Shown in pieces: positions 1-22,498 of a DNA stretch of 22,498 nt; within the stretch, counting starts at the first letter, position 1; every line of letters begins with the position of its first letter. This stretch comes from a virus. A model generated the notes under the pieces. The model searched no databases and was not told the origin of the DNA. It saw only the letters and a list, made by a program, of their open reading frames with translations. The stretch is taken from IMG/VR virus record IMGVR_UViG_3300020171_000459, positions 1 to 22,498 of that record. One strand, given 5' to 3'. The position numbers were made by a program, and so were the translations under genes.

Positions 1-483
1 TTCATCAAGATATTTGTATAATCTATTTTGAATTTCAGGATTATCCCCACTGACATAAACTCTATTCCCAACTTTCCAACCTTCTGCTAAATATTGTCCA
101 TAAATCCAAAGTTTTCGTGGATCTGCAAATGGAATATCTAATTCAGGAAGTTTTTTGATACATAAAATCTGTCTTTCATACCATTTAGTTAAATCAAAGT
201 CACAAAGTTTCTGTTCTATTACTCCCTTATCTTTAGTTACTTTCCATTTGAAAAATTTATGTTCAGGAGTGCAAATAAATGAAGTTCCGTTTCTAACCTT
301 GACTTTCACTACTTCTTTCTTTCCTTTGTTCCACCAATTTAAAATGGGTTTAAACTCTAATCTGTTTTCTTTAAAGTTATAAGAAAGTGCCTGTATATCT
401 TTAAAGTTTTGTAAGTCTTTTATTTTCTTAATTGAATATCTATTATTCTCAAGGCAAATTATTTTTGTATCACCTGCAAAGCA
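1..483 (-). other. Intein N-terminal splicing domain plus start of LAGLIDADG endonuclease (partial)
   Basis: The intein begins at Cys157 of the host frame (codon 483-481). Block A is CFAGDTKI: Cys1 nucleophile followed by the usual Gly-Asp-Thr. Block B is TPEHKFF at residues 228-234, with the Thr-x-x-His that activates the N-terminal splice bond. About 50 residues later, IYGQYLAEG (283-291) matches the first LAGLIDADG helix (block C) of homing endonucleases, with a hydrophobic lead and the YLAEG ending. The second LAGLIDADG helix and blocks F and G are beyond the edge. The insertion point directly follows Asp-Asp and coincides with the predicted catalytic Cys, so after splicing the +1 Cys of the C-extein would become the catalytic residue. 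Confidence 0.9.
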
Positions 484-951
484 ATCGTCTTTCTTTAAAG
501 CCCAAGTTTCAGTCGGCTGCATCCAGCACTCATTAAAGCCAAATTGGTTCTGATCTGTTTCATAAGTCAGTTTTGGAGCTAAGAACTTACAGATGTCTAA
601 AAAGAGATTGTCGTATCTCTCTCGCATTGTTTCGCCTTGGTACTTATCTAAATATAAGTTGTTATCTTTCAGAACCTTTTGAAAGACGCAGTTTCTTGGC
701 TCAATAAAAGTTCTGACATCAAAATCAGGTTTAACTCCTTTAATTTCTCTGCCTTTGTAAGTAATGTCAGCAGTAGGATATTTTGAGTATTCAGTTTTAA
801 ACCATTCAGGTATTTCAGTTTCCATTTTTCCACGCAAATTAAAGTTCTCTAACATTTGAGTTGCAAGCTGGGAATTAACATTCTTGAACTTGTTTTGAAG
901 CTCCAAGTAGTCTGGACAGAAAAGTTTTGTAATGAAATCAAACCAACTCAT
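1..951 (-). CDS. Transglutaminase-like cysteine peptidase, N-terminal part, interrupted by an intein (runs off window)
   Basis: An open frame of 317 codons runs from ATG at 951 to the window edge without a stop. Residues 1-156 are the N-extein. Its end resembles bacterial and phage transglutaminase-like cysteine peptidases: Tyr-Glu-Thr-Asp (130-133), then ECWMQPTETWALKKDDC (141-157), which fits the family pattern W-x-x-P-x-E-T...GDCED around the catalytic Cys. From Cys157 the protein becomes an intein (separate entry). The catalytic His and Asp would lie in the C-extein, outside the window. The start overlaps the upstream stop as ATGA. Coming after the tail hub, the product could be a tail-associated peptidase or a virion/host modifying enzyme; the substrate is unknown. 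The family call rests on the short motif and is moderate; the intein call is stronger. Confidence 0.65.
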   Translation of the reverse strand, partial: MSWFDFITKLFCPDYLELQNKFKNVNSQLATQMLENFNLRGKMETEIPEWFKTEYSKYPTADITYKGREIKGVKPDFDVRTFIEPRNCVFQKVLKDNNLYLDKYQGETMRERYDNLFLDICKFLAPKLTYETDQNQFGFNECWMQPTETWALKKDDCFAGDTKIICLENNRYSIKKIKDLQNFKDIQALSYNFKENRLEFKPILNWWNKGKKEVVKVKVRNGTSFICTPEHKFFKWKVTKDKGVIEQKLCDFDLTKWYERQILCIKKLPELDIPFADPRKLWIYGQYLAEGWKVGNRVYVSGDNPEIQNRLYKYLDE

Positions 952-1160
952 AAAGTCATCTCTAATAATCGCAACCTCTCTTTGTATTCAATTATCATTT
1001 TTGGTATTTCTTCTTCGCCTATTTTGATTTGCTTTTTGTAATGATCCATAAGTGCCTGCCTTTCTTCTAAAGGATAATTACTCCAGCGTTCCAACATTTT
1101 TTGATAGTATTCCCTAAGGACTTCTTTCGTTTCCATGCTTACCACGCTAAACGGATTCAT
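948..1160 (-). CDS. Small helical protein, 70 aa, function unknown
   Basis: A charged, helix-forming protein rich in Glu, Lys and Tyr (for example KEVLREYYQKMLERW, then KKQIKIGEEEIPKMIIEYKERL); it may form a short coiled coil. No catalytic motif or membrane segment is seen. The ATG at 1160 has AAGG six bases upstream and overlaps the end of the 72-residue gene. A second in-frame ATG at 1136 (METKEV...) is also possible and would remove that overlap. Its stop overlaps the start of the transglutaminase-like gene as ATGA, so the two are probably translationally coupled. Position after the hub suggests a tail-tip accessory or assembly protein, which is inference only. Confidence 0.7.
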   Translation of the reverse strand: MNPFSVVSMETKEVLREYYQKMLERWSNYPLEERQALMDHYKKQIKIGEEEIPKMIIEYKERLRLLEMTL

Positions 1161-11825: not shown

Positions 11826-12053
11826 TTAAAACAAACTCCATAATTTTGTTACCATTCCAATTATAATTGCTCCAAGCATTAATGTTACAATCCATTTTAT
11901 CCAATCAACATTGATTTCAACTTTGTTAAGTTTCTCTGTATGACAATTCAATATTTCTGTATGTTTTTCTAATTCTTTCTGCACATTCCCCATCTCCGAG
12001 TTTAATACTGCAAGGTGCTTTGCATTTTCCTCTGGTAATTTACTATTTTTCAT
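11826..12053 (-). CDS. Coiled-coil plus membrane-anchor protein, 75 aa (XhlA/holin-like)
   Basis: The start ATG at 12053 overlaps the stop of the preceding paralog as ATGA. Longer in-frame starts would lie inside that gene and lack SD support. Residues 10-48 form a probable coiled coil (GNVQKELEKHTEILNCHTEKL), followed by VDWIKWIVTLMLGAIIIGMV, a single membrane segment near the C-terminus, ending KLWSLF. This layout resembles XhlA/BhlA-type phage membrane proteins. A holin-related role is possible, but its place within the head-neck block is unusual for lysis genes; it may instead be a membrane-active virion component. Confidence 0.7.
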   Translation of the reverse strand: MKNSKLPEENAKHLAVLNSEMGNVQKELEKHTEILNCHTEKLNKVEINVDWIKWIVTLMLGAIIIGMVTKLWSLF

Positions 12054-13081
12054 CTTGCACCACTTACCCATTTGCATGGAATATTTAACATTGGAATTAA
12101 TTGAGGTTTGATATATGGAAGTTGGTATGGCTTTATTTGCTTTTGTCCTGTATGAATTACCAATCCTTCTGGTTCTACTTCAATTCTTAAGTCTGTACTT
12201 GTAAGATTTTTAAATGTTAAGATGTTGCTTTCAAGATCAAAATATCCTGTTCCGCTTAAATTATTTGAAATGTAAAGATTTCCATTAGTAGTAACTGCAT
12301 CAGACACATTGCTTATTTCTAAGTCATAAAGCCAATTTGTTCCTGTAGATGTTTGATTTATATTTAAAGTTTGTTCTGTTCCTATTAATTTTATTTTTCC
12401 AGTCTGTGCATTTAAAATTCCATTAACTTCAATATCTCCTTCTGTTGTAAGAGTATATGAACCTAATTTCAATGTTCCGTTTGAACCAATAATCATTTCA
12501 TCAAATTTGCAATTTCCTATAAGACTTATTTCAACTGCAAACCTTCCGAAAGTAAGATCAGACTGATAATCCAAGCCTTTTATATAAACTTCGCTTCCTG
12601 CACCTGCTGAATCCCAATCAAACCCATTTCCTGTAATTGTTGCTGTTCCTAAAGACTGAATAACAATTGGAAAATTAATTCCTAAAAAAGTTATAGCTGA
12701 TCCTAAGTTTGATAAGGTAGCTCCATTAGCAAGAGTAATCCCCGCAGACGCTAAGGTAGCATTAATAATCATGTTTCCACTTGCTCCAATGTTTATATTG
12801 CTTGCAGTCAAGACAGAATATAAAAGATATAAAGTTCCGTTTGTAATTGTAGTTGTTCCTGAAACCGTTAAATTTCCACCAAGCGTAATAGTCCCTGTAT
12901 AAGTATCTAAACTTGAAAGCGTACTTATTGATAAAACAGTTGTTGTGCTGCAGTTATCTGTTGAAGTATTATTAAATATAGCTGTATCTGTATTATCGTC
13001 AGGCCAACCTACTGCGTTCCAATTGCCATTTGCTTCCCAGATTCCTGTTCCATTTCCGTTTGTCCATGTGTAATTTGTCAT
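12050..13081 (-). CDS. Adhesin-like virion protein, paralog 2, 343 aa
   Basis: The start is placed at ATG 13081 (MTNYTWTNGNG), aligning with the paralog's start and overlapping its stop as TAATG; a longer start upstream has no match in the paralog. The N-terminus has WEANGNWNAxGWPDDxTDTAIF, reminiscent of the W...NW...P...D-x-A-x-F signature at the start of autotransporter-type beta-helix adhesins. The middle is a Thr/Gly/Asn-rich beta-solenoid-like region. The last 70 residues (SNILTFKNLTSTDLRIEVEP and following, ending IPCKWVSGAR) match the paralog closely. Likely a virion surface fibre or adhesin; the target is unknown. Confidence 0.78.
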   Translation of the reverse strand: MTNYTWTNGNGTGIWEANGNWNAVGWPDDNTDTAIFNNTSTDNCSTTTVLSISTLSSLDTYTGTITLGGNLTVSGTTTITNGTLYLLYSVLTASNINIGASGNMIINATLASAGITLANGATLSNLGSAITFLGINFPIVIQSLGTATITGNGFDWDSAGAGSEVYIKGLDYQSDLTFGRFAVEISLIGNCKFDEMIIGSNGTLKLGSYTLTTEGDIEVNGILNAQTGKIKLIGTEQTLNINQTSTGTNWLYDLEISNVSDAVTTNGNLYISNNLSGTGYFDLESNILTFKNLTSTDLRIEVEPEGLVIHTGQKQIKPYQLPYIKPQLIPMLNIPCKWVSGAR

Positions 13082-13995
13082 TATGTTCCACTTACCCATT
13101 TGCAAGGTATATTTAACATAGGAAGTTTCATAGGTTTCATGTAAGGAAGTGTCAAAGGTTTCCTCGCATTCTGTCCTGAATTAATTACATATCCTTCCGG
13201 TTCTACCTTGATTGTCAAATTCGTGCTTGTTAATTTGTTAAAAGTCAGAACATTATTTTTGACATCCAGCAAACCAGTTCCAGCTAACTCGTTTAAAGTC
13301 AAGTTGCTGTTATCTAAATATAAACCTGCATTGTTAATTGTGGTTATTCCCAAAACTGTTACTGAATCATAATAAGGATAAAAGACCGCATTAGGCCCAG
13401 TTCCATTTATAGTCAAGTCTCCTAAAATATTTGTAACTTTCTGAAGAATAACATAACCTGATCCGCTTAAAGTCACATTATATACATCTTGCCATTGTGG
13501 AATAAAATTGGTTGTATTTGTATTGTTGAAATTTATTGTTCCGTTATTATGAATAAAAGTTCCAGAAACACTAAATCCACTATTACCTACAGTAGTTACT
13601 CCAGAAGTTGCAGAATAAGTTCCAACAGTTACAGCCAGACCTCTACAAGTTATTGCACTTGCATTTCCTGTCAAATTTCTGCAGGTTAGATTTCCAGTTG
13701 TAGTCAAACTATAATTACTTGTTGATGTGTCTAACTTTCCTGCAACCAGATTTATTGAAAAAGGTGAATCGGTTGTAGCTAAGTTTCCACCAAGAGTGAT
13801 TGTAGCAGTATAAGAGGCCGTACTTGAAATTTTAAAAATTGTTAAATTTCCAGTTGTGTTACAATTTGTATTAGAAGAAGTTCCGTCAAAGATTGCTGTA
13901 TCAGTGATATCATCTGGCCAGCCTGCAGCGTTCCAGTTGCCGTTTGCTTCCCAAACATTAGTTCCAAGTCCATTTGTCCATGTAAAGTCTGTCAT
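13081..13995 (-). CDS. Adhesin-like virion protein, paralog 1, 304 aa
   Basis: Begins MTDFTWTNGLG at ATG 13995, overlapping the micro-ORF stop as ATGA. It shares about 45 N-terminal residues and about 65 C-terminal residues with the next gene, while the central region (about 60-235) aligns poorly. The centre is repetitive and Thr/Asn/Gly-rich (NLTCRNLTGNASAITCRG; VTTVGNSGFSVSGTF), consistent with a right-handed beta-solenoid. The conserved C-terminal block LPYMKPMKLPMLNIPCKW is Pro-rich and may be a docking tail. No secretion signal is present, so it is a virion rather than an exported protein. Confidence 0.78.
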   Translation of the reverse strand: MTDFTWTNGLGTNVWEANGNWNAAGWPDDITDTAIFDGTSSNTNCNTTGNLTIFKISSTASYTATITLGGNLATTDSPFSINLVAGKLDTSTSNYSLTTTGNLTCRNLTGNASAITCRGLAVTVGTYSATSGVTTVGNSGFSVSGTFIHNNGTINFNNTNTTNFIPQWQDVYNVTLSGSGYVILQKVTNILGDLTINGTGPNAVFYPYYDSVTVLGITTINNAGLYLDNSNLTLNELAGTGLLDVKNNVLTFNKLTSTNLTIKVEPEGYVINSGQNARKPLTLPYMKPMKLPMLNIPCKWVSGT

Positions 13996-20075: not shown

Positions 20076-20323
20076 GATTTATTTCCTCTTGAGTGCTTTT
20101 CTACTCCGTTCAATTTGAATTGTCTGATTACTTTGTCATCTGTAATGTGATGAGTGCAACTTGTATCTTCTGTGTGATATTCGTAAAGTCCGAAACCTGT
20201 CTTGTCAGTCCTGTCTAAAGTCATAAACTGATTTTGAATTGTTGAAATGTTATCTTCTACAAAGTCTGTTATGCCTCTTGCAACCGGCATCATTGTCCCT
20301 TTTTTAGTCCAAAATGCATTCAT
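20069..20323 (-). CDS. Hypothetical protein, 84 aa
   Basis: The start at ATG 20323 (MNAFWTKKGTMMPVARG) overlaps the portal-MuF stop as ATGA; further upstream in-frame ATGs would lie inside the portal gene. Sequence is mixed and polar, with DFVEDNISTIQNQFMTLDRT in the middle and His-rich DTSCTHHITDDKV near 57-69. No membrane segment or known motif. It could be a small head-assembly protein; this is inferred from position only. Confidence 0.65.
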   Translation of the reverse strand: MNAFWTKKGTMMPVARGITDFVEDNISTIQNQFMTLDRTDKTGFGLYEYHTEDTSCTHHITDDKVIRQFKLNGVEKHSRGNKSW

Positions 20324-22128
20324 ACTGGTCTCCATGAGCAGCGGCAATTTGTATGGGCTGGAATTAAACCCTTTGCTTGAATAATATTAAATGTCTGTCC
20401 ATTCAAATCGTAACAAACATGACCTTTCTTATCATTTCTGCTATCTATTGTTGCATCCCATTTAACTTCTTCTATTCCCTGTTGCTGTAATCTCAATAAA
20501 CTTCCTTCATTTGCTATTCGTATGGATTCTGTGCGTGCAATCATTTTTGCTCTTTCTTTGTCATTATCTATAAGTGGAGCTATTTCATTTGAAATGCTTG
20601 AAATGCTTAATCCTTCTGTAAATGCTCTTGAGAATATGTCTCTTAGCTTTTTAACTATTGACTTTGCAATGTCTTTAATCTCGTTGAAATTGTATGCTTG
20701 GATAAATTTTAAAAAGAAGTCTTTTGTATCTAAGTAAACTGTCTTGTCAGACCAGCCTATCCATTCTTCTAAGTTGTCTATTTTGTCTAATTCTTCCTTG
20801 CTTAGTTCTTTGTGTAATAAAGGTTGAAATGCAGGTTGTTCAGGTTTGTATTCCCCGCTTAGTTCATCCGGTGAGTATCCAAGCTTCTTCTGTGCTAATT
20901 CTTTGGTAATTAGTCCAGCTTGATATTGAGCTATGTATTTCTGTGTCTCTGCATTTGTGTCTTTGTAATCAAAATCGTTAAAACAGATTTCTACCTGATC
21001 TGTGGTTAATTTGTATTGCGCTAAGAACTCAGAGAAAATATATTTGTTTAACTGCCTGAGTATAATGTCTTGATTGTATTTGATGTCCGGCTTGAGAAGG
21101 TCTAAAAGTGCTTGTGAAGAAGCATAGTTTACTTCTGTGGCCTGTCCCATAAGAATCTTAGGAACTCCAATACCCATTAAAATTCCTTGCATGCCTACTT
21201 CTTGATACTCTGGAAGCAAAGAAGATTTTGAGTTGTCATCCACCATTCCTATATTTATACTGCTGTCATGAACAAACTCTATTTTATTATTCATGTCAGT
21301 AAAGTCTGCACTTATTCTATCCATAACTTCTTTAGGTATATGCTTTGAACTTGGATCATCTTTATTTCCTATTGTAACATCATACTTTGGAAAGCCTTTG
21401 CGATAAATGAAATTCCCAGTTCCCTCTTGAATGTTCTCAAAGATAGTTAGTTCTCGCCAAAGCGGCTCTACTACTCCAATTCCATAAATTCCAGTTGGTG
21501 ATTCATTAAGCCTAAAGTAAATTATATCATCAATTCCAAGCTCTATAAATTGTCCGTTGGTTACTTCCTGATAAAAGTTTGAAATATTTCCATACTCATC
21601 ATGCTCTATTACTACCGAACATGGATCTATAAGCGCTATTGAACTGATTTGTCCCATTCCGTCTCTGACTATCTCAGCAAAGCAGTTTCCAAAGATTTGT
21701 AGTTGCCTTGCAATGTTTTCTGTCTTGAAATTTAAATTCAGTTTCTCCACGAACCTGTAAAAGTTGTCTTCCACTAAAGGAAGGTCAGTTTCTATTTTTA
21801 GTCCAGGTGAAGCCACTAATTGAGCCTTCTTGTTAATTGCTGTAAATAAGAGTGAGTTATGAGTATAGACTTTTAACATTCCTTTAAACTGATTTCGCTT
21901 TGAATCTACCTGAAAGTATTTAGATTCTTTGCCTATTGTAATCTGACTCTTTCTTTCGTTGAATAAATATTTGCTTCCAAAGGTCTGATCTGACTTCTCA
22001 AGAAAAATAGTTTCTTCTGGTATTTCATCACAAAGTCTGTTAACTGGCTTTGCTTCATGCTTTTTTGAAGAATAAGTCGGTTTAAATTCCTTCGCTTTAA
22101 ACACATTAAGTAAATCAGAGACTTTCAA
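20320..22128 (-). CDS. Portal protein fused to MuF-like C-terminal domain, 602 aa
   Basis: Residues about 60-440 are a phage portal: NSLLFTAINKKAQLVASPGL, FGNCFAEIVRDGMGQISSIA, LIDPCSVVIEHDEYGNI, DDIIYFRLNESPTGIYGIGV and GIGVPKILMGQATEVNYASS follow the portal order (wing, clip, stem, crown). Residues about 490-602 match Mu gpF-like minor head proteins: MIARTESIRIANEGSLLRLQ, GIEEVKWDATID, and the ending IPAHTNCRCSW with the family's H-x-N-C-R-C. The fusion joins two proteins normally encoded side by side. The frame opens without an ATG; TTG at 22128 is the likely start with only a weak SD, so the first residues are uncertain; GTG at codon 8 is an alternative. Confidence 0.9.
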   Translation of the reverse strand: MKVSDLLNVFKAKEFKPTYSSKKHEAKPVNRLCDEIPEETIFLEKSDQTFGSKYLFNERKSQITIGKESKYFQVDSKRNQFKGMLKVYTHNSLLFTAINKKAQLVASPGLKIETDLPLVEDNFYRFVEKLNLNFKTENIARQLQIFGNCFAEIVRDGMGQISSIALIDPCSVVIEHDEYGNISNFYQEVTNGQFIELGIDDIIYFRLNESPTGIYGIGVVEPLWRELTIFENIQEGTGNFIYRKGFPKYDVTIGNKDDPSSKHIPKEVMDRISADFTDMNNKIEFVHDSSINIGMVDDNSKSSLLPEYQEVGMQGILMGIGVPKILMGQATEVNYASSQALLDLLKPDIKYNQDIILRQLNKYIFSEFLAQYKLTTDQVEICFNDFDYKDTNAETQKYIAQYQAGLITKELAQKKLGYSPDELSGEYKPEQPAFQPLLHKELSKEELDKIDNLEEWIGWSDKTVYLDTKDFFLKFIQAYNFNEIKDIAKSIVKKLRDIFSRAFTEGLSISSISNEIAPLIDNDKERAKMIARTESIRIANEGSLLRLQQQGIEEVKWDATIDSRNDKKGHVCYDLNGQTFNIIQAKGLIPAHTNCRCSWRPV

Positions 22129-22182: not shown

Positions 22183-22389
22183 CTATTGTTTTAAAATCTC
22201 AGCAGCTCCACATTCCTTGCAAAGAGTTCTGTTCTTTTCTTCTGGTAAGAAATAACTCAAAAATGGTTTAACCTTCAAATGCTTTCTTTCTGTCTTTTTC
22301 CAAGGAATGTTCTCTTGCTTCTCTGGTCTGTTTGCTTGGAATCTGTAACAAAGTCCTGTTATTTCCTTATTGCACTTGTCGCATTTCAT
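22183..22389 (-). CDS. Small zinc-finger-like protein, 68 aa
   Basis: Two Cys pairs, CDKC (3-6) and CKEC (57-60), with a basic middle region (WKKTERKHLKVKPFLSYF), suggest a zinc-binding nucleic-acid or protein-interaction domain. The start overlaps the terminase stop as ATGA and it ends with TAG. Placed between large terminase and portal, it could aid packaging; function is not assignable from sequence alone. Confidence 0.75.
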   Translation of the reverse strand: MKCDKCNKEITGLCYRFQANRPEKQENIPWKKTERKHLKVKPFLSYFLPEEKNRTLCKECGAAEILKQ

Positions 22390-22498
22390 CTTCTTCTCAC
22401 CGAATAACTTGGATTAAACTCTCCTATTCCTAATCCCATGCAAGCTAACCCTAAAGCCATTACACAATTATGAACTAAAATATAATTAGCAAAGTATT
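22386..22498 (-). CDS. terL: Large terminase subunit, C-terminal end, interrupted by an intein (partial)
   Basis: The frame enters from the window edge and ends at TGA 22388-22386. Its last 36 residues read YFANYILVHN, then CVMALGLACMGLGIGEFNPS and YSVRRR. The first ten are an intein C-terminus. The C-extein CVMALGLACMG fits the segment right after the nuclease motif III of large terminases (HDD-hydrophobic-x-x-ALALA). Being directly upstream of the portal supports TerL. The product would be the ATPase/nuclease motor that packages DNA; splicing would be needed to rebuild the Asp-Asp metal site region. Identification rests on a short fragment plus gene order. Confidence 0.7.
   Translation of the reverse strand, partial: YFANYILVHNCVMALGLACMGLGIGEFNPSYSVRRR
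22467..22498 (-). other. Intein C-terminal splice junction (partial)
   Basis: The residues FANYILVHN followed by Cys match intein block G: hydrophobic strand, penultimate His, terminal Asn, then a +1 Cys nucleophile in the extein. The Asn codon is 22469-22467 and the +1 Cys codon 22466-22464. Only ten intein residues are in the window, so class and endonuclease content are unknown. Confidence 0.8.

Follow-up and report, generated by a model that had tools for sequence, protein, structure and literature searches.

A putative LAGLIDADG-type intein at the catalytic cysteine of a viral transglutaminase/LapG-like enzyme gene

Does the gene cut off by the left end of this viral contig carry an intein directly before the codon for its catalytic cysteine, and would the encoded enzyme then depend on protein splicing? 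The window, meaning the whole stretch of DNA that was analysed, is 22,498 bp long and identical to the full record of an uncultivated tailed virus (G000). Its minus-strand genes run from right to left as portal-MuF, head protease, capsid, connector and tail genes, with the left-end frame last. This frame (951..1, minus) consists of 317 codons, is open throughout and runs off the contig, and its ATG overlaps the end of a small upstream ORF (948..1160). Given the base composition of this DNA, the chance of a stop-free run of 316 codons is about 7e-13. The record ends at position 1, which places intein blocks F and G and the C-extein of the gene outside it.

The intein N-terminal half and its host enzyme

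The original prediction read this frame as a transglutaminase-like peptidase interrupted by an intein, and all of the motifs it named were found in the one open frame, including ECWMQPTETWALKKDD at 531..484. The N-terminal half of the intein (residues 157–317) occupies 1..483 on the minus strand and is cut at the contig end. It was matched by NCBIfam TIGR01445 (E 4.8e-14, 53.1 bits, cut-off 24.5) and by Pfam PF14890 (E 1.7e-11, 44.6 bits, cut-off 35.8), which bears out the intein call for this half. Sequence reading together with TIGR01445 places block A (CFAGDTKI, including Cys1) at 460..483 and the block B region (TSFICTPEHKFF, containing ICTPEHKFF, with TxxH present) at 250..285, both on the minus strand. 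A first LAGLIDADG-like helix, KLWIYGQYLAEGW (76..114, minus), attributed to a putative homing endonuclease, was read from the sequence and was aligned by BLASTP with the equivalent region, DPDLHKLRGLYVADGW, of the intein in contig L090 described below. It is the single helix of this kind read in the window intein, the position of the second motif falling beyond the contig, and endonuclease models gave no match to the N-half in the same profile searches that returned TIGR01445 and PF14890.

The N-extein (484..951, minus; residues 1–156) ends ...WMQPTETWALKKDD right before the catalytic Cys, as judged from a family profile and its invariant columns. Queried alone, it had no match in Pfam, in PHROGs or in a tblastn search of 50,697 phage records, and single-protein scans of viral contigs returned no relatives of it, nor of the tail protein. 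Because no family model matched the N-extein by itself, genes split in this way are liable to be annotated as truncated or chimeric. The family was gathered with the motif pattern ETx5GDCEDG, which gave 55 stretches in viral contigs (L018–L072); a pattern with a fixed Lys yielded chance matches only and was dropped. The profile was built from 53 of the 55, leaving out L022, which bears an intein, and L024, an unconvincing member. The N-extein reached 54.0 bits with this profile of the uninterrupted family, whereas the highest of 1000 shuffles was 8.2, and its match runs precisely up to the invariant catalytic Cys of GDCEDG, in agreement with the placement of the intein that had been proposed. 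Tyr130, Asp133, Glu141, Trp143, Glu148, Thr149, Asp156 and Cys157 are shared without variation by 21 uninterrupted members, and the window N-extein ends KKDD, the usual family ending being GD.

Family members match Transglut_core, DUF553 and Peptidase_C93, and Cys, His and Asp are invariant across 38 of them; in the window gene the catalytic Cys site was located, and the His and Asp would fall in the unseen C-extein. An AlphaFold model of one member (L018, pLDDT 88.5) has LapG as its closest structure (E 4e-8), with further structural matches to 3isr, TglA, the pseudomurein endoisopeptidase PeiP and, more weakly, PeiW. By its Pfam matches and predicted fold, the viral host family falls among the Transglut_core, BTLCP and LapG proteins. 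The BTLCP/LapG peptidases (Peptidase_C93) share the fold and the Cys-His-Asp arrangement with the viral host enzyme, whereas LapG itself, a bacterial enzyme of the periplasm, has no intein, and the viral family is divergent, the structural match showing 21–23% identity. Once mature, the enzyme encoded beside the tail genes is probably a peptidase or transamidase of the LapG type. The label of virion peptidase, used in the original prediction, is one that we infer from the position of the gene after presumed tail genes and from a modelled fold like that of LapG and, less closely, of PeiP and PeiW.

When the phage records were queried with a family member, the sole match, a weak one, was to a Geoglobus pleomorphic virus. 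A study of river viruses (PMC11283719) reported BTLCP genes to be the commonest auxiliary gene there. In one of the 53 profile members (L027:9245-10633, minus), the catalytic Cys and His are separated by an in-frame insert of ∼138 aa that is unlike an intein; this protein is near-identical to another member (L049:463-1395, minus), the 138-aa insert being present in L027 only.

Inteins at the same residue in other viral contigs

Complete inteins at the catalytic Cys were identified in two further contigs (splice junctions are marked here by a slash). In L090 (IMGVR_UViG_3300035701_000082), a 295-aa LAGLIDADG intein has the junctions GD/C...VVHN/CEDSG, and the sequence reads ...WQLPVETYTLGAGD / CLTADT...ETDIVVHN / CEDSGSLRIALARRAG...GHYF. 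In L096 (IMGVR_UViG_3300025697_003353), a 145-aa mini-intein has the junctions GD/C...IVHN/CEDGT and reads ...WQYHPITILRKFGD / CLPEDT...ESDIIVHN / CEDGTILFLDACRMCG...GYHSY; an AlphaFold model of this precursor, made without an alignment, reached a pLDDT of 33. The insertion residue in both is the same as in the window, the catalytic Cys being the +1 splicing nucleophile, and the intein C-terminal model TIGR01443 lies above its cut-off in both. The expectation that an HN/Cys junction is followed by a CED-type continuation thus holds in these relatives, while the window gene stops before that point; its missing half would be expected to end in the same way.

These contigs came out of pattern searches of differing stringency. 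A strict site-intein pattern (block A with GD) had no match in viral contigs, a looser one gave five matches with L090 among them, and a C-terminal junction pattern gave ten with L096 among them; a scan of genome contigs for the same junction returned chance matches or uninterrupted relatives only. An apparent match to L090 in Bacteroides phage SJC03 was dropped, as the intein host there reads as ribonucleotide reductase. Seven contigs (L092, L094, L095, L097, L098, L099 and L101) show long frames with intein-like C-termini, FANGILVHN/CEDC, and C-exteins ending DHPNCRC that resemble MuF-like minor head proteins.

The L090 and L096 inteins are clearly related (z 26; identical at 41 of 88 residues of the splicing region), whereas the window intein is more distant from them, with z values of 12.1 and 9.6 against shuffles. 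It is nearer to the intein of L002 (z 17.0), which sits in another host and at a site of a different type, so that a common origin of the three inteins at the catalytic Cys does not follow. One family member, L022:1754-3892 (plus), carries a complete 335-aa LAGLIDADG intein upstream of the catalytic motif, with a +1 Ser (junctions DDYH/CYSQDT...IWSGN/SYQ). An intein at the catalytic-Cys site is found in none of the 53 family-profile members (L018–L072 without L024 and L022). Judged from the sequences of the window, L090 and L096, the catalytic Cys is a recurrent site of predicted inteins in this viral family.

It is thus very probable that the window gene is a viral transglutaminase/BTLCP(LapG)-like cysteine-enzyme gene with a LAGLIDADG-type intein directly before the catalytic-Cys codon, and the overall interpretation first put forward is supported by homology, by way of other contigs. 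No earlier report of an intein in this host family was found in the literature searched, the coverage of which was incomplete; the host is no singleton oddity, because inteins recur in the family. Within that literature, this is a known kind of element in a host family new to inteins. The closest known counterparts are the same-site inteins of L090 and L096, which share with the window the host family, the insertion residue and the catalytic Cys at +1, but differ in being complete and, in L096, a mini-intein, with modest sequence similarity. The TerL and other active-centre inteins of mycobacteriophages are alike in lying in phage genes, in their insertion at functional motifs and in their homing endonucleases, but the part of that survey available here lists mainly nucleic-acid enzymes and the portal as hosts and mentions no transglutaminase-like or cysteine-peptidase host (PMC5050341). 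An intein in a peptidase gene is in itself no novelty, one being known from the gene of an organellar serine peptidase of unrelated fold.

Predicted splicing and probable persistence of the intein as a homing element

In the translated precursor, an N-to-S acyl shift would begin at Cys1, the N-extein would pass to the +1 Cys, and the Asn would cyclise as the intein leaves. The +1 Cys through which the exteins were joined would then become the catalytic nucleophile of the finished enzyme. Since the +1 splicing Cys is also the catalytic Cys, the precursor should be inactive, and by standard splicing chemistry activity would depend on splicing. Homing most likely explains why the intein persists, because the stretch that encodes W..P.ETx5GDCED is one of the most strongly conserved parts of the gene and because imprecise loss would destroy the enzyme.

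A zymogen-like activation switch, by which the timing of splicing would arm an envelope- or virion-associated viral transamidase or peptidase, is unlikely to be the reason why the intein stays at this site. One nucleophile does serve both splicing and catalysis, the 145-aa mini-intein of L096 is too small for an endonuclease and is still open and intact, and conditional splicing is reported for other inteins (PMC6195587, PMC7360933). However, the absence of an intein at the site from all 53 profile members makes such a switch dispensable for the family, and selfish homing accounts for the pattern. Regulation by splicing is possible, but is not needed to explain the intein, as uninterrupted members manage without it. 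Were the switch real, the splicing Cys would become the catalytic nucleophile and the moment of splicing would decide when the enzyme is armed.

There is likewise little to favor a dead or decaying intein, or a Hint domain that cleaves without splicing, in which case the full enzyme would never be made. The C-terminal splice residues of the window intein lie outside the record, leaving room for such a reading, but Cys1, the TxxH of block B and the LAGLIDADG acidic residue are all intact, the 317 codons are open, and HN/Cys is kept in both same-site relatives.

A viral transglutaminase/LapG-like family that is nearly absent from cultured phage records is thereby added to the intein hosts, and it has a recurrent site at which the splicing nucleophile and the catalytic nucleophile would be the same residue. 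The full-length and mini-intein alleles of this one site and the intein-free relatives form a compact natural set for asking whether such an intein is selfish only, or also gates the enzyme.

The right contig end and an apparent TerL intein

At the right end of the contig, upstream of the portal gene, minus 22496..22386 reads YFANYILVHN/CVMALGLACMGLGIGEFNPSYSVRRR up to a stop. YFANYILVHN has the form of an intein C-terminus, although intein models gave no match to this short piece. The C-extein matches TerL C-termini, aligning with VMSLGLACYGARGFGE in L104 (0 of 2000 shuffles as good) and with CVMSLAIA in L107 (2 of 2000), and had no match to transglutaminase C-exteins. A best match of the right-end peptide, to a Pseudomonas TerL, was set aside because it lay in the wrong frame.

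A circular genome, in which the left-end N-half and the right-end C-half (read as YFANYILVHN/CVMALGLACMG...) make up one intein and the gene is no functional transglutaminase, is very improbable and closure of the contig was rejected: the ends do bear intein-like halves in compatible orientation, but their direct join is out of frame, shared 12-base end repeats are absent, the joined intein of only ∼170 residues with its LAGLIDADG helix has no space for the remaining endonuclease, and the right-end extein is of the TerL type.

The window virus instead seems to carry a second intein, in TerL at the HDD/C nuclease motif. Both sites, in TerL and in the transglutaminase gene, would be DD/C, provided that the unseen N-extein of TerL has the same ending as in its relatives. 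The TerL inteins surveyed in mycobacteriophages are all placed in the ATPase domain (PMC5050341). The position of the contig ends would be accounted for by a putative break of the assembly at two related inteins. The virus of L090 likewise has an apparent intein in TerL in addition to the one in its transglutaminase gene; its 814-aa TerL frame (L112:851-3292, plus) appears to hold a complete intein that begins EYC/YHKDTEF... and ends QGN/C.

Next to the right-end piece, portal and MuF-like domain are fused in a single ORF (20320-22128, minus). Most of this ORF is covered by the match to one phage record, that of an Altiarchaeum virus (25% identity, E 6e-4), which is a weak hint that the window virus has an archaeal host. 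Further along, the neighboring ORFs 12050-13105 and 13081-13995 (both minus) are apparently tandem paralogues, with near-same starts (TWTNG.GT..WEANGNWNA.GWPDD) and near-same ends (PY.KP...PMLNIPCKWVSG).
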